Assembly (NCBI GenBank): GCA_947494675.1
Contig: CANLVP010000001.1
Location: 1-64,000 of the forward strand
Reading direction: 5' to 3'
DNA from: an uncultured Paracoccaceae bacterium
GTDB taxonomy: Bacteria; Pseudomonadota; Alphaproteobacteria; Rhodobacterales; Rhodobacteraceae
Length of the DNA: 64,000 nt
In this document: positions 36,728 through 43,731 of the stretch, piece by piece
Position numbering within the stretch: position 1 is the stretch's first letter
Layout of the letters: the number at the start of each line of letters is the position of its first letter
Position numbers and translations under genes: made by a program
Notes under the pieces: model-generated
What the model saw: the letters and a program-made list of their open reading frames with translations, nothing else
Told to the model about the DNA's origin: nothing
Databases searched by the model: none

Positions 36728-38731
36728 ATGGCCCAAATCTCTCTGACATTTCCTGACGGCAACAAACGTGACTACGAAGCAGGCGTGACCCCTGCTGATG
36801 TTGCTGCCGATATCTCATCCTCTTTGCGCAAAAAGGCGATCTCTGCGACCGTGAACGGCCAGCATTGGGACCTGCAATGGCCAATTGATGCGGACGCCGA
36901 CATCGCCCTGCACACGATGAAGGACGAAGATCAGGCGCTTGAGCTTGTCCGCCACGACCTTGCCCACATCATGGCCCGCGCCGTGCAAGAGATTTGGCCT
37001 GACGTGCAGGTGACAATCGGGCCAGTGATCAAGGACGGCTGGTATTACGACTTTGACCGGACCGAGCCCTTCGTGCCCGAAGACCTCGCGCTGATCGAAA
37101 AGAAGATGAAAGAGATCATCAACAAGCGTGATGAGGTCCGGACTGAGATTTGGGACCGCGACCGCGCGATCCAGCATTATCAGGACAAGGGCGAGCCCTA
37201 TAAGGTCGAACTGATCGAGGCGATCCCCGGCGATGAGCCGCTGCGCATGTATTGGCATGGCGATTGGCAAGACCTCTGCCGTGGTCCGCATTTGCAAAAC
37301 ACCGGCCAGGTCCCGGGCGATTGCTTTAAGCTGATGTCGATTGCCGGGGCCTATTGGCGTGGGGATTCAAACCGCCCGATGCTGCAACGCATCTATGGCG
37401 CGGCCTTCACCAACAAAGAAGGCCTCAAGCAGCACATGCACCGGCTGGAAGAGGCCGCCAAACGCGACCACCGCAAGTTGGGCCGCGAGATGGGTCTGTT
37501 CCACATGCAGGAAGAGGCCCCCGGTCAGGTCTTCTGGCACCCCAACGGCTGGACGATCTACACCGAGCTGCAGGACTTCGTCCGCCGTAAGCAACGCGCT
37601 GGCGGCTATGTTGAGGTGAACACACCGCAGGTGGTGGACCGCAAGCTTTGGGAAGCCTCCGGCCATTGGGAGAAATTCCAGGAGTCGATGTTTATCGTCG
37701 AAGTGGACGAGAGCCGCACGGAAGATGGCGACAACGCGCAGAACTTTGACGAGCGTGTGAATGACCCCAAGCATACGCGGGTCAATGCACTGAAGCCGAT
37801 GAACTGCCCCTGTCACGTGCAGATTTTCAATCAGGGCCTGAAATCCTACCGCGACCTGCCGCTGCGCATGGCCGAGTTTGGGTCCTGTGCGCGTTACGAA
37901 CCCTCAGGTGCCTTGCACGGCATCATGCGTGTGCGTGGCTTTACGCAGGACGATGGGCATATCTTCTGCCGCGAGGATCAGATAGAATCCGAGACAGCTG
38001 TCTATATCGACTTTTTGTCATCCATGTATCGCGACCTTGGCTTTACCGACTTCAAGGTGAAATTCTCGGACCGCCCTGAAAAGCGGGCAGGCACGGATGA
38101 GACATGGGATAAGGCCGAGAACGCGCTGCTTTCTGCGACCCGCGCTGCGGGGATTGAGCCAGAGCTGAACCCAGGCGAAGGCGCGTTCTACGGACCAAAG
38201 CTGGAATTTGTGCTGACCGACGCCATTGGCCGCGACTGGCAATGCGGCACCCATCAGGTAGATTTCGTGCTGCCTGAACGGCTGGGTGCGGATTACATTG
38301 GCGAGGACGGCAACAAACACCGCCCCGTCATGCTGCACCGTGCGACGCTAGGGTCGTTCGAACGCTTCATCGGCATCCTGATCGAAGAACACGCAGGCAA
38401 ATTGCCCTTCTGGCTGGCCCCGCGTCAGGTTGTCGTGGCGACGATTGTGTCGGATGCGGATGATTATGCGCTGGAAGTGGTTGAGATGCTCAAGGCTGCT
38501 GGCATCCGGGCCGAGGCTGATCTGCGCAATGAGAAGATCAACTATAAAGTCCGCGAGCATTCGGTCGGCAAAGTCCCTGTGATCCTGGCCATCGGCGCGC
38601 GCGAGGTGGAAGAACGCACCGTTTCGATGCGCCGCTTGGGCGAAAAGCAATCCAGCGTACAGGCGATTGCCGATGTTGTCACCACGCTGAGCGGCGAAGC
38701 AACGCCACCCGATCTGCGCGCGACGGCGTGA
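36728..38731 (+). CDS. thrS: Threonyl-tRNA synthetase
   Basis: The 667-residue class II synthetase has a TGS domain (~1-62), the HxxxH/Cys editing domain ([11 protein letters not shown]..., [12 protein letters not shown]), the catalytic core (class II motif 2 around [25 protein letters not shown]; zinc ligands in MNCPCHV and neighbours) and C-terminal anticodon domain ([11 protein letters not shown]...). ATG 36728 has GAGGAGAG upstream. A strong hairpin follows at 38803. Confidence 0.98.
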
Positions 38732-38802: not shown

Positions 38803-38830
38803 CAAACCCGCCGGAGCCACGGCGGGTTTG
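38803..38830 (+). terminator. Terminator-like hairpin after thrS
   Basis: Perfect 11-bp stem CAAACCCGCCG / CGGCGGGTTTG with a 6-nt loop, 71 nt after the thrS stop. The T tract is short, as often in high-GC alphaproteobacteria. Confidence 0.7.
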
Positions 38831-39013
38831 TCGATTCTGGGGCCGAAAACCGCCTGTGACCGGGTGTCGCAGGCCAAAATCGGCCCAAATGACCTCACCG
38901 TCCCGTGACCCACGCCTCTGTGAGTGGATTGCATTCCGCCCCCCGCTTACCTTCTGTTCATCCCCTGCTGGGATACGAATTGAACTGAACACCGTGCAAA
39001 AGGAAGAACCCAC
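38831..39013 (+). promoter_or_regulatory. Leader/promoter region of the bufferin operon
   Basis: This 183-bp stretch precedes bufA1. AAAAGGAAGAACC just upstream of the ATG is the ribosome site. I see no confident sigma-70 or ECF-type promoter; none is claimed. Bufferin operons elsewhere can be under ECF-sigma control, so this is where to look. Confidence 0.35.
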
Positions 39014-39316
39014 ATGTCTAAGATGACCAACACTCTGCTCGTCGCATCCGCAGTCGCAACTGCTGTTGCTGGTATCGCCACGAATGCTGCCGCTCAGGAA
39101 AACGAAAAGTGCTACGGCGTTTCGCTGGCTGGCGAAAACGACTGTGCAGCCGGCCCCGGCACCACATGCGCCGGCACCTCTTCTGTCGACTATCAGGGCA
39201 ACGCTTGGACATTGGTCCCCGCTGGCACCTGCGCCGACATGGAACTGCCTGCACAGGCTGACGGCTCTGCACGTATGGGCTCGCTGGAAGAGCTGGACCG
39301 CGACCTGCCAGCATAA
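39014..39316 (+). CDS. bufA1: Bufferin-1-type RiPP precursor (DUF2282)
   Basis: A 100-residue exported protein: N-terminal signal-like helix (~1-27, ending NAAAQ) then a mature part with four Cys at 33, 44, 52 and 73 in the DUF2282 arrangement ([28 protein letters not shown]). The adjacent DUF692 (MNIO) and DUF2063 genes identify a bufferin operon. In characterised bufferins the enzyme installs Cys-derived thiooxazole rings and the peptide binds copper in the periplasm. A 9-bp hairpin follows. Confidence 0.9.
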
Positions 39317-39326
39317 ATCTGCTAAG

Positions 39327-39348
39327 GGGTGGGCAGTATTGCCCACCC
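39327..39348 (+). terminator. Intra-operon hairpin between bufA1 and bufB
   Basis: Perfect 9-bp stem GGGTGGGCA / TGCCCACCC around GTAT, 10 nt after the bufA1 stop. It lacks a T tract and lies inside the operon, so a partial terminator or 3'-end stabiliser that raises precursor over enzyme mRNA is more likely than full termination. Confidence 0.65.
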
Positions 39349-39375
39349 TACCCTTCGACCAAAGGCCCTGATCCG

Positions 39376-40227
39376 ATGCTTGACGCTACGCAAAATACAC
39401 TGCCCGCCAAACCCGGCGTCGGATATAAACCCCAACACTACAGTGACATCACGGCAAATCCCGGGCCCTTGGGCTGGCTTGAGGTGCATGCCGAAAACTA
39501 CATGGGTGATGGTGGCCGCCCGCTGGCGCAACTGCGCCATCTGTCCGAACAATTCCCCATTTCCGTGCATGGTGTTGGCCTGTCGATCGGCGGCGAGGGC
39601 CGCCTTGATCCAGACCACCTTGCACGCCTCAAGCACCTTTGCGGATGGCTAAACCCCGCCAGCTTTTCCGAGCATCTGGCTTGGTCCACCCATGACAGCC
39701 ATTTTCTAAATGATCTGCTGCCGCTGCCCTATACGCAGGCCACCGTGGCCCGTGTGTCGGACCATATTGACGAGGTGCAAAATGCCCTTGGTCGCCAGAT
39801 GCTGCTGGAAAATCCGTCAAGCTATCTTGCCTTCGCTGAAAGCGACATGTCCGAGACCGATTTCCTGAAGGCCGTAGTTGCGCGCACAGGCTGCGGCCTG
39901 CTTTTGGATGTGAACAATGTCTTTGTCAGCGCCACCAATCTTGGCTTTACACCGCAGGGATATATCGACGCCTTCCCCCTTGATAAGGTTGGCGAAATTC
40001 ATCTGGGCGGCCATGACGAAGATCACGATGACCACGGCGCGCCGCTGCTGATCGACAGCCACGGACGCGAGGTCGCGGACCCGGTTTGGGCGCTGCTTGA
40101 CTACACCTTGGCCCGCTCTGGCACCAAGCCATTGCTGGTGGAATGGGACACCGATGTGCCGGATTGGCCCGTCCTTGCCGCCGAAGTGGCCCGCGCCGCA
40201 GCCGCACTGGAAATGGTGCCCGCATGA
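39376..40227 (+). CDS. bufB: MNIO-family (DUF692) bufferin maturase
   Basis: A 283-residue TIM-barrel multinuclear iron oxidase. Iron-ligand motifs are present in order: [51 protein letters not shown] and IDSHGREV. MNIOs modify precursor Cys residues, here those of the DUF2282 peptide upstream. It overlaps bufC by ATGA, implying coupled expression of a two-protein enzyme. Confidence 0.93.
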
Positions 40228-40961
40228 TCGTCACACAATCGGAATTCACTGCGGGGATTTTGGACCCCAAGCGCCCTGCACCCGAAGGACTGCAAGACGG
40301 CACAGGCGCGCCCACAACCAAGCGGTTCGACGTCTACCGCAACAACGTGGCCGTCAGCTTGACCGACGCATTGGTCAACGCCTTCCCTGTGATTCACAAG
40401 CTCGTCGGAGACGAATTTTTCCGTGCAATGGCGGGGGTTTACCTGCGCACGCACCTGCCTGACACCGCGCTGATGATGTTCTATGGCAATGAGATGCCAA
40501 AGTTCCTCAAACGCTTTGGCCCGGCGCAATCGCTTCATTATTTGCCCGATGTCGCACGCCTCGAAATCGCGATGCGCAAAAGCTATCACGCCGCCGACGC
40601 GGCCCCCGTATCAGCCGATGCCTTAGGCCAGATCGCGCCCGATGCATTGATGGCCGCCAAACTCACTTTGGCCCCTGCGGTCCAGATCCTGCAGTCCAGT
40701 CACCCGATCCATGGTCTCTGGCAGGCCAATATGGTTGCGGACGCACCAAAGCCGGTGAAACAGGCCGAGAATGTCCTGATCACCCGACCACAATTTGACC
40801 CGGTTCAGCATCTGATTTCGGACGCTGATCTGACGTTTTTGACCGCACTGCAGGACGGACACGCCTTGGGCGTCGCCATGTCCAAAGCGGGTCCTGGTTT
40901 TGATTTGGGGACCATTCTGGGCCTCTTGCTGCGCCAAGGCGCACTGACTGAAATATCCTGA
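40224..40961 (+). CDS. bufC: DUF2063 bufferin maturase partner
   Basis: A 245-residue protein. The N-terminal DUF2063 helical domain ([52 protein letters not shown]) is the precursor-recognition partner of DUF692 enzymes; the C-terminal half is beta-rich winged-helix-like and less conserved. Start at the ATGA overlap with bufB. Followed 11 nt later by a DoxX gene. Confidence 0.92.
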
Positions 40962-40972
40962 AAGGCCCTGAA

Positions 40973-41506
40973 ATGATTGCACTATTTAACCGCACATATA
41001 CATCCCTGAACCGCTTGGGCGACGACCTTTTGCCGCTTTTGTCCCGGCTGGTTTTTGCGGGCGTCCTGTTCATGTATTACATCAACTCGGGCCTGACGAA
41101 GATCGGCGACAGCCTGTTTTCGCCATCCCTGGGCGCCTACGCGCAAATCTTCCCCAAGCAGATGGAAGCCGTGAGCTATGACGTCAGCCAGATGTCAGGC
41201 TTTCACACGTTGGTGGTGCTTGCAGGGACCTGGGCGGAATTTATCCTGCCAGTTCTGATCGTTATCGGACTTTTGGCCCGTCCTGCGGCCCTTGGTATGA
41301 TCGGGTTTATCATCGTGCAAAGCCTGACCGACATCGTGGCGCATGGGGCCGATGGTGGGACTTGGTTTGATGGGGCGTCCGATGGGATCATCGCCGACCA
41401 GCGGGCCTTTTGGATCCTGGGCCTGCTGATCGTGCTGTTCAAAGGTGCGGGTTGGCTGTCGATTGACCGCTTTTTCAGTGGGCCTTCGGCTGATCCGGCT
41501 GCCTAG
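40973..41506 (+). CDS. DoxX-family membrane protein of the bufferin operon
   Basis: A 177-residue inner-membrane protein with about four helices: LLSRLVFAGVLFMYYINSGLTKI opens the DoxX fold, then HTLVVLAGTWAEFILPVLIVIGLLARPAALGMIGFIIVQ. DoxX genes end many bufferin operons and are proposed to act in redox or in maturation, but their role is not settled. It overlaps the opposing downstream gene by 32 nt. Confidence 0.88.
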   Translation: MIALFNRTYTSLNRLGDDLLPLLSRLVFAGVLFMYYINSGLTKIGDSLFSPSLGAYAQIFPKQMEAVSYDVSQMSGFHTLVVLAGTWAEFILPVLIVIGLLARPAALGMIGFIIVQSLTDIVAHGADGGTWFDGASDGIIADQRAFWILGLLIVLFKGAGWLSIDRFFSGPSADPAA

Positions 41507-41865: not shown

Positions 41866-42192
41866 TTAGGTTCCAAGGTGCTGTGACTGGACGTCAGGTT
41901 TCCAGCCCATGGTCCAGCCCTGATTGTCGATCACGGGGCGTTTCATCAATGTCGGATGCGCACGCAACAAGTCACTGGGATCATTCGCTTTTTCGGAATC
42001 GTTAAGATTTCGCCACGTGGTCGAAGACTTGTTAATAATTGCATCGCCAAAGGCGTTCACAATTGCGGTGATGTCATCATCCGTTAACCCGTCGGCCCGC
42101 ACGTCGATGACCTGCGGCGCGATGCCTGCGGCCCGCAATGATTTCAGCGCTTTACGGCACCTATCGCAGCTTTTCAGCCCAAAAAATCGCAC
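41866..42192 (-). CDS. ArsC/Spx-type thioredoxin-fold reductase, copy 1
   Basis: A 108-residue ArsC-family protein with redox-type Cys pair SCDRCRKALKSL and the family end KRPVIDNQGWTMGWKPD. YffB/Spx-like proteins usually act on glutathione or bind partners; arsenate reductase activity is not shown. GTG 42192 has AAAAAGGGGG upstream and begins at the family position (VRFFGLKSC). It is divergent from the cold-shock gene, and a paralog lies on its other side. Confidence 0.82.
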   Translation of the reverse strand: MRFFGLKSCDRCRKALKSLRAAGIAPQVIDVRADGLTDDDITAIVNAFGDAIINKSSTTWRNLNDSEKANDPSDLLRAHPTLMKRPVIDNQGWTMGWKPDVQSQHLGT

Positions 42193-42317
42193 AACTGCCC
42201 CCTTTTTAAGCATTTGCAGCAAAGTGACCCGACCCCACGCCGATGTCATTTGCCTTTTGCATAAATGCCCTAATGTTGAAGGGACCGCAATTCGGTCGGG
42301 ACGAAGGAGAAGTGAAG

Positions 42318-42524
42318 ATGCCGACGGGCACAGTAAAATGGTTTAACACCACAAAAGGCTTTGGTTTTATAGCCCCAGACGAAGGCGGACCGGATGTGTT
42401 CGTGCACATTTCGGCCGTGGAACAGGCGGGCATGACCGGCCTCGCGGACGATCAAAAGGTCGCATACGAGCTGGTCGAAGGTCGCGATGGCCGCAAAATG
42501 GCCGGTAACCTTTCAGCCGAATAA
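42318..42524 (+). CDS. CspA-type cold-shock/RNA chaperone protein
   Basis: A 68-residue OB-fold protein with RNP1 KGFGFIAP and RNP2 VFVHISAV, and the opening [14 protein letters not shown]. It binds single-stranded RNA or DNA. GAAGGAGAAGTGAAG supplies a strong ribosome site. A highly structured noncoding stretch follows (42525-42714). Confidence 0.95.
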
Positions 42525-42714: not shown

Positions 42715-43074
42715 CTACCCCAGCCAGACCGCCTGCGCGGCATCATCCCAGCCCAAGGTGAACCTGGTGCCGTCGGTAATCACGGGTCGCGCCATGAGCG
42801 CAGGTTGATCGTTGAGCTGCGCATCGGTTTCGGACTCGCGCATCCAGGCGTTGAGGTTGCGGTAGGCTTGTGATTTTCGGTCCACGAGGTTGGAGCCGAA
42901 TTCAGCGATGAGCGGGGCCCATTCATCGTCGGTCAGACGATCAGCGCGGACATCGCGAAAGGTCACGTCAATGCCCGCAGCGTCGAGCGCTTTGAGGGCC
43001 GCTTTGCAGTCGGAACAGGTGGGCAGACCGTAGAGGATCATATCAGGGGCTTTCGGTTCGGGTTCAGATAGCAT
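42715..43074 (-). CDS. ArsC/Spx-type thioredoxin-fold reductase, copy 2
   Basis: A 119-residue paralog of the gene at 41866: TCSDCKAALKALDAAGIDV and ARPVITDGTRFTLGWDD. It keeps the CxxC pair. The start is uncertain: ATG 43074 (GGGG nearby) or ATG 43041, where the family usually begins (MILYGLPTCSDC). Convergent with the cold-shock gene. Confidence 0.82.
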   Translation of the reverse strand: MLSEPEPKAPDMILYGLPTCSDCKAALKALDAAGIDVTFRDVRADRLTDDEWAPLIAEFGSNLVDRKSQAYRNLNAWMRESETDAQLNDQPALMARPVITDGTRFTLGWDDAAQAVWLG

Positions 43075-43100
43075 TAACCCCGATTTGGCAGGGTTTGGCC

Positions 43101-43646
43101 ATGTCGAATTATGTCAGACCACGGGTTCATGGGGCCACGATATTCGTAACCGCGACATTGGCGGAGCGCGGAAGTGCCACGTTGGTCGATCATGTCAGCG
43201 ATTTGCGCGATGCGGTCCGGGCGACAATAGCGGAGCGTCCGTTTGCCATTGATGCGTGGGTCGTGTTGCCGGACCATTTCCACGCGGTGTGGTCGTTGCC
43301 CGAAGGGGATCGGGATTTTTCGACGCGGATGGGGGCGATCAAGGCAAGGTTCACGCGCAACATACGTAGGGCGGGCTTTAGACCGCCGCCCCCCGGTCCA
43401 ATGAAGAATGGGGTTGTCGCAGGGCGGGTGCGCAATGGTTTGCCGTGGAAGGATGCCGGTCTGAAGCCCGGCCTACGCGGGAATGAACAGACGGTCTGGC
43501 AGCGGCGATTTTGGGAGCATCACATTCGGGATCAATCGGATTGGGAGAACCATGTCGCGTATTATTGGCACAATCCGATCAAACATGGATTTGTCACCAA
43601 TGTCCGCGATTGGCCATATTCGTCATGGCATCGCGATCATCCGTAG
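43101..43646 (+). CDS. REP-associated tyrosine transposase (RayT, Y1 family)
   Basis: A 181-residue Y1 HUH nuclease. The HUH motif is VVLPDHFHAVWSLPEG (~50-65); the catalytic Tyr is expected in the C-terminal AYYWHNPIKHG region (residues ~157-167). RayTs are domesticated transposases that spread REP hairpins. The region after RFTRNIRRAGF is a proline-rich insert (PPPPGPMKNG...) whose DNA carries an inverted repeat. The stop lies within the first of a pair of downstream REP hairpins. ATG 43101 chosen over a TTG two codons earlier. Confidence 0.9.
   Translation: MSNYVRPRVHGATIFVTATLAERGSATLVDHVSDLRDAVRATIAERPFAIDAWVVLPDHFHAVWSLPEGDRDFSTRMGAIKARFTRNIRRAGFRPPPPGPMKNGVVAGRVRNGLPWKDAGLKPGLRGNEQTVWQRRFWEHHIRDQSDWENHVAYYWHNPIKHGFVTNVRDWPYSSWHRDHP
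43365..43477. repeat. REP-like inverted repeat inside the RayT coding sequence
   Basis: Positions 43365-43386 and 43456-43477 are an inverted pair matching at 19 of 22 positions, each with CGTAGG, CGGGCTT and AGACCG blocks. The pair is read in frame within rayT and bounds its Pro-rich insert. Confidence 0.75.
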
Positions 43647-43727
43647 GGTGCGTGATTTCACGCACCGTTGTTTGCGGGGAGGTTTGTTGAGAGGGCGGAA
43701 TGGTGCGTGTGAACACGCACCCTACGG
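43641..43727. repeat. REP doublet (two hairpins in 14-bp terminal inverted repeats) after rayT
   Basis: Two hairpins, 43647-43666 and 43702-43721, share the GGTGCGTG/CACGCACC stem. The whole 87-bp unit is bounded by the perfect 14-bp inverted repeat CCGTAGGGTGCGTG / CACGCACCCTACGG. The first copy contains the rayT stop codon. This is the usual layout of a RayT-mobilised REP/BIME. Confidence 0.85.
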
Positions 43728-43731
43728 CTGG

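Follow-up and report, generated by a model that had tools for sequence, protein, structure and literature searches.

Bufferins and their kin have been called one of the largest groups of modified peptides in bacteria (PMC12668002). In Caulobacter, the Buf1 operon CC3254-CC3257 encodes DUF2282, DUF692, DUF2063 and DoxX proteins in this order, and sigma-F together with its antagonist NrsF drives the buf genes from the promoter GTAACC-N16-CGAA; this module, which responds to chromium and cadmium, is the control found described for Buf1 (PMC3511200). In Buf1 peptides, the central Cys residues are reported to be modified, with the first and last Cys forming a disulphide (PMC12452194). The oxazolin/fontiphorin clusters, which belong to the HvfA-type captophorins, likewise possess an MNIO enzyme with a DUF2063 partner and use 5-thiooxazole chemistry (PMC12668002). 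In Buf2, an exported Cys-containing precursor (BufA2) is likewise encoded before an MNIO gene.

The window studied here is a stretch of 64,000 nucleotides (contig CANLVP010000001.1, positions 1 to 64,000) from an uncultured Paracoccaceae bacterium. It contained genes for BufA, BufB, BufC and a DoxX-family protein in the same order as in Caulobacter (Table 1). The first-pass annotation had read these four ORFs as a complete bufferin operon, and all four products scored above the Pfam cut-offs, with 86 bits for DUF2282 (cut-off 22.4) in the bufA product, and with 345.8 bits for MbnB_TglH_ChrH in the bufB product and 83.9 bits for PF09836 (DUF2063) in the bufC product, both above the curated values. 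Its coordinates, its four-Cys precursor and its 4-nt overlap between the enzyme gene and the recognition-partner gene, here bufB and bufC, were also confirmed. Among the NCBIfam models, BufB scored 370.9 bits with NF050167 (MNIO_BufB, cut-off 310) and stayed below the cut-offs of HvfB, ApyH, MbnB and ChrH. The locus is unlike the HvfA type, since BufA lacked the EGKCG repeats of that type and the scores were 237.4 bits for HvfB (cut-off 360), 45.3 for HvfC (cut-off 142) and 19.3 for HvfX (cut-off 80), the HvfC and HvfX models describing a sister family below whose cut-offs BufC and the DoxX protein fell. It is also unlike Buf2, as the 18.7 bits of BufA fell short of the BufA2 cut-off (60) and BufA had four Cys, not six or twelve. 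Thus, the locus is a complete Buf1 bufferin operon with the ordinary four-gene set and, by its genes, one more member of a known family.

Table 1. Positions of the buf genes and of the associated features in the window
Feature	Position	Strand	Basis or remark
Hairpin 3' of thrS, likely thrS transcript end	38804..38829	+	Read in sequence
buf box, two tandem palindromes TSACG-N4-CGTGA	38888..38930	+	PWM; candidate activator site
-10 element TACCTT, 28 nt after box GTGA	38948..38953	+	Spacing kept in relatives
Hairpin ATCCC-CTGCT-GGGAT at predicted mRNA 5' end	38960..38974	+	Stem kept in relatives
bufA, DUF2282 bufferin precursor, 100 aa, Cys33/44/52/73	39014..39316	+	Pfam, alignment
BufA C-terminal tail, residues 87-100	39272..39313	+	Conserved columns
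bufA-bufB intergenic hairpin, REP-like palindrome, GTAG foot on - strand	39326..39349	+	10-pair stem
bufB, MNIO bufferin maturase	39376..40227	+	Pfam, NCBIfam, structure matches
bufC, DUF2063 partner with C-terminal RRE-like domain	40224..40961	+	Pfam, predicted model
DoxX-family membrane protein gene	40973..41506	+	DoxX 31.2 bits (cut-off 23.6)

Most of the BufB sequence could be aligned both with the MNIO structure 3BWW and with the DUF692 chain in 8HCI. A sequence search with BufC returned no solved relative at E<=1; its predicted model (pLDDT 94.1), with C-terminal strands and helices, matched chain A of the TglHI entries (E 1e-5), presumably the partner TglI, and the DUF2063-type protein 3DEE (E 5.9e-5). 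The predicted structure of BufA was poor (pLDDT 59.3); by eye, its N-terminus had a K, a hydrophobic stretch and AAA-Q near residue 27, an apparent Sec signal peptide. The 3.9 Mb genome to which the window belongs had a single MNIO match and a single DUF2282 match, namely bufB and bufA, and no known RNA family was found at the locus, the only match being a chance one below its gathering score. In the family, an MNIO match was present in 105 of the 149 genomes sampled, this genome included. For comparison of loci, 80 relatives were taken as the best by BufB similarity, a choice biased towards near kin; bufA and bufB were matched in all 80, bufC in 79 and doxX in 77, the relatives without a bufC or doxX match being short loci. 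The joint presence of bufA and bufB in every one of the 80 relatives puts the operon far beyond chance. Exactly four Cys were present in the aligned part of all 81 precursors (window plus 80 relatives).

By analogy with the characterised bufferins and captophorins (PMC12452194; PMC12668002), the product is likely an exported periplasmic peptide in which Cys44 and Cys52 form copper-binding thiooxazoles. BufC, with its DUF2063 and RRE-like domains, would hand the precursor over to BufB, an iron enzyme that would convert Cys44 and Cys52; after export by Sec, the peptide, closed by a disulphide between Cys33 and Cys73, would hold excess copper in the periplasm. Mass shifts are thus expected on Cys44 and Cys52 and not on all four Cys, because it is the central Cys that are reported as modified in Buf1.

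The new part is the control region, where a conserved candidate box takes the place of the described sigma-F/NrsF promoter. The gene thrS (TIGR00418, 641.7 bits) ends at 38731, upstream of bufA, and is followed by a hairpin that was absent from the list of the terminator scan, which requires a T run. This hairpin likely ends the thrS transcript, in which case buf transcription would start from a promoter of its own. No standard sigma-70 promoter before bufA was listed by the promoter scan. The box, with a consensus taken over the relatives, has its palindrome centres at about 38901.5 and 38916.5, that is, 15 bp apart (centres 14.5 and 29.5 of the box) with a third symmetric centre in between, and overlaps the presumed -35 region. 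The PWM exceeded the best shuffled score in 78 of 81 upstream regions, a count to be read with the facts that it started from a motif picked by eye and was fitted to the same sequences, with no refit on the shuffles. Regions scoring at least 15, a threshold chosen by the authors, were called box loci. In 47 of the 73 box loci, a TANNNT element lay 28 or 29 nt after GTGA (shuffled sequences, counted at 27-30 nt, gave 3.5 on average and 10 at most); the other 26 had none at this distance. When near copies were removed from these 47 loci, 34 remained, and a stem of four or more pairs began 4-8 nt after the -10 element in 27 of them, against 8.9 on average and at most 16 in shuffles; in 18, the stem had at least five pairs (shuffles: 3.6 on average, at most 9). 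Chance values were obtained with three other ranges of offset, and the stem sequences varied among loci with the pairing conserved. The comparison shows that a tandem-palindrome box, mostly with a putative -10 element at a fixed distance, is a conserved architecture of buf promoters among these relatives. A DNA-binding protein, probably two dimers of a dedicated activator answering a signal of its own, may bind the box over the -35 region and recruit RNA polymerase to TACCTT, the transcript probably beginning with the small hairpin.

NrsF had no match in the genome, and the sigma-F promoter pattern GTAAC-N16..18-CGAA was absent from the 200 nt before bufA. Among the 80 relatives, 72 had the box without nrsF in the stretch searched, five had a sigma-F promoter, three had neither at the thresholds used and none had both; the two promoter types are therefore mutually exclusive within this set. 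In all five sigma-F-promoter loci, sigF and nrsF adjoined buf, and in L048, the one of them submitted to Pfam, NrsF (183.4 bits) and the sigma factor were confirmed. Two loci that are not among these 80, L105 and L106, passed the box threshold only narrowly, with scores of 15.5 and 15.1. In 28 further family loci typed by PWM, which overlap partly with the 80 relatives (three pairs with identical BufB), 15 box, six sigma-F and seven loci with neither were counted, so the box is frequent and not universal; outside the family, 30 loci of the same class all stayed below the box threshold (best 9.6), eight of them having a sigma-F promoter. On a quick BufB tree with 133 rows, the box required 12 changes, where shuffling gave 37.8 on average, and the sigma-F groups L048/L075, L049 and L064/L066 sat among box rows; how many promoter switches occurred is unsure, because the tree carries no bootstrap and 48 of its 127 inner branches are open. 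Among the literature matches listed, none dealt with the promoter of a bufferin operon from Rhodobacteraceae, and neither "promoter" nor "hairpin" is used in the main text of PMC12452194.

The first-pass annotation had proposed that the inducer and the metal could differ, arguing from the position beside thrS and from the lack of visible copper genes. A different control is supported by the results given above, with no NrsF, no sigma-F promoter and the box instead, but they give no sign of another metal; the argument itself is weak, since thrS is common to the relatives and CueR scored above its cut-off on contig 3 of the same genome. A thrS gene was upstream on the same strand in 76 of the 80 related loci (median distance 232.5 nt; less than 400 nt in 64), hence the position beside thrS is inherited, and a linkage peculiar to this genome was rejected.

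Genomes were searched with a sequence-only box model for which 50 of the 73 loci with a box had been used; as it was trained on buf promoters, its sensitivity at buf is partly built in, and genomes sharing species with training loci may inflate sensitivity, though not specificity. In the genome of the window, the buf promoter was found with E=1.3e-5 and the next-best site only with E=1.8, leaving a larger box regulon there unsupported. A pattern search of this genome gave one exact match, the buf site, and nine other matches versus seven for the reversed pattern. Across the 149 family genomes, and after removal of six rows in which a site was read again from the opposite strand, 53 sites were found at E<=0.001, one per genome, and each of the 53 preceded an MNIO domain in the same orientation. 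Such a site was present in none of the 44 genomes lacking MNIO (Fisher p=4.6e-11, the test being chosen post hoc), and 52 of the 105 MNIO genomes were without one. With all E values up to 0.05 included, the 64 sites close to an MNIO domain were 93-908 nt from it, with a median of 498. Of the 62 sites at E<=0.01, 4 were away from MNIO (two in genomes lacking MNIO), and of the 81 at E<=0.05, 17 were. Seven of these 17, comprising all four at E<=0.01 and three weaker ones, were inspected by eye and had no common gene, several lying inside ORFs. A known peptide is thus placed under a new candidate switch that apparently has a single target. Since the strong sites in the 149 genomes are all at MNIO operons, the box could serve as a DNA bait for the missing regulator, and a regulator caught in this way would lead to the true inducer in an abundant marine family.

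A regulator with more than one target would fit these counts if the box were made up of several weak sites for a well-known regulator, global or copper-related, such as CueR or a response regulator, with single half-sites bound elsewhere that are too degenerate to score. Two tandem palindromes at 15-bp spacing would indeed give single-dimer sites a low score, the genome has CueR above cut-off, and weak box sites do exist away from MNIO; however, no second target recurred among the seven inspected sites, and the box is placed over the presumed -35 or further upstream, unlike MerR-type sites, which sit between -35 and -10. A compound of this kind is possible, and is considered rather unlikely. 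That the operon answers another metal or an oxidative or sulphur signal, copper buffering not being its main role here, is improbable: the chromium- and cadmium-responsive sigma-F/NrsF module of Caulobacter is replaced, but a changed regulator need not mean a changed ligand, and the four Cys are kept within a core of 90% mean identity in the 81 sequences. In Sulfitobacter strains, DUF692 genes were expressed in marine biofilms and no RiPP product was detected in laboratory culture (PMC11278168), which has no bearing on the identity of the inducer. The explanation preferred as a whole, that is, a chromosomal Buf1 operon of a Rhodobacteraceae bacterium outside sigma-F/NrsF control, with a dedicated activator acting at the box and a peptide that would hold copper, is put forward as quite probable.

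A strong buf box was also observed between bufA and bufB in one relative (L205, positions 1133-1310), and the region before bufA, in what is presumably the same genome (L084), had a PWM score of only 12.4. The two genes look as if they were separately promoted, as would be expected of a movable promoter element.

Besides the Cys core, the precursors shared a C-terminal tail, R-x-G-S-L-x-x-L-x-R-D-L-P, behind a variable linker. Mean identity over the 81 sequences was 90% in the core, 85% in the tail, 65% in the signal peptide and 63% in the linker. The strict tail stood at the end of 73 of the 81 precursors (relatives and window), of 22 of the 30 from additional loci of the family and of 4 of the 30 from the class outside the family; the looser RD part was present in 80, 25 and 6, respectively, and a loose GSL-like match after the last Cys in 81, 29 and 30. 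Promoter type as an explanation for the tail was rejected, as 7 of 18 sigma-F loci also carried it. In L045, L104 and L110, BufA had an extra stretch inside and behind the tail (e.g. ASLEADGYNGLARDLPEGTSEEG in L045), which gives the impression of a lengthened tail.

How the enzyme complex recognises precursors with a signal peptide is treated as an open question in PMC12452194, and the tail, conserved behind its variable linker with the RD part in 80 of 81, might be a follower peptide, GSLxxLxRDLP, recognised by BufBC beside or instead of the signal peptide. Against this, preliminary evidence in the same paper makes the signal peptide part of the recognised sequence, and the RD part is missing from 5 of the 30 further family precursors and from 24 of the 30 of other families, a BufB-like gene nonetheless being beside 24 of the 30 other-family loci. 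The BufA model is poor (pLDDT 59.3), a role of the tail in folding or binding by the mature peptide would fit just as well, and the follower function is regarded as doubtful. The conserved tail provides a direct handle on the recognition of the exported precursor, the point treated as open in PMC12452194. The joint claim that an undescribed, dedicated, single-target regulator has replaced sigma-F/NrsF and brought the same copper peptide under a different signal, and that BufBC also recognises a C-terminal follower, is offered tentatively and would more probably fail than hold.

The gap between bufA and bufB contained a further conserved structure. In 72 of 81 loci, a perfect stem of eight or more pairs (G-U allowed) was contained in the 65 nt that follow the stop codon of bufA, compared with 149 of 1620 and 169 of 1620 shuffles, 6 of 80 stretches inside bufB and 9 of 77 after doxX. 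There were 79 distinct gap hairpins in the 81 loci, the nine failures being counted by their best stem, and most of them were unlike classical terminators, as a T-rich end followed in only 14 of 81. The hairpin probably raises the level of precursor mRNA over that of enzyme mRNA, which would yield much peptide and little enzyme. Strong hairpins follow the gene of an excess product in the lantibiotic nisA-nisB and in Rhodobacter pufBA-pufLM; the buf hairpin has the same position and differs in being, in the window, a REP-like palindrome.

The foot of this hairpin resembled that of known GTAG-tagged repeats (PMC3733652). REPs usually have more than 100 copies (PMC2817692); the pattern of the window's gap palindrome was found at 4 places in its genome at up to 2 mismatches. 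A REP-associated tyrosine transposase (RAYT) was encoded at 43095-43646 (+), 3.7 kb downstream of the hairpin, with 156.3 bits against a cut-off of 80. A GTAG or CTAC foot was present at the gap hairpin in five loci by a scan that misses interrupted stems, so recruitment of repeats would explain a few of the gap hairpins and not all. Behind the RAYT gene, palindromes with GTAG or CTAC at the foot were observed at 43647-43666 and 43695-43728, with arms GGTGCGTGA/TCACGCACC and GTGCGTGT/ACACGCAC. A RAYT-like gene was also seen further downstream of buf in L043 and L056, and a short piece of one in L007.

Some further observations concern the surroundings of the operon. Two ArsC/Spx-like genes, at 41866-42249 (-) and 42715-43074 (-), flanked a cold-shock gene at 42318-42524 (+); in most relatives, both ArsC queries matched one gene downstream of buf that adjoined a cold-shock gene. 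On contig 3 of the same genome (L204), positions 613000-631000 formed a metal island with CueR and two further CueR-like MerR regulators, in which ORFs for a multicopper oxidase, CopD and a cytochrome c were recognised by eye (family resemblance only), along with a small Cys-rich protein ending in GDCCVYCSYATVPCPPIQEGKSCCG. Two bufA-like ORFs stood in tandem in L109 and L116; in L116 the second copy was diverged, and the MNIO match there contained one internal TAA by the count of the search.
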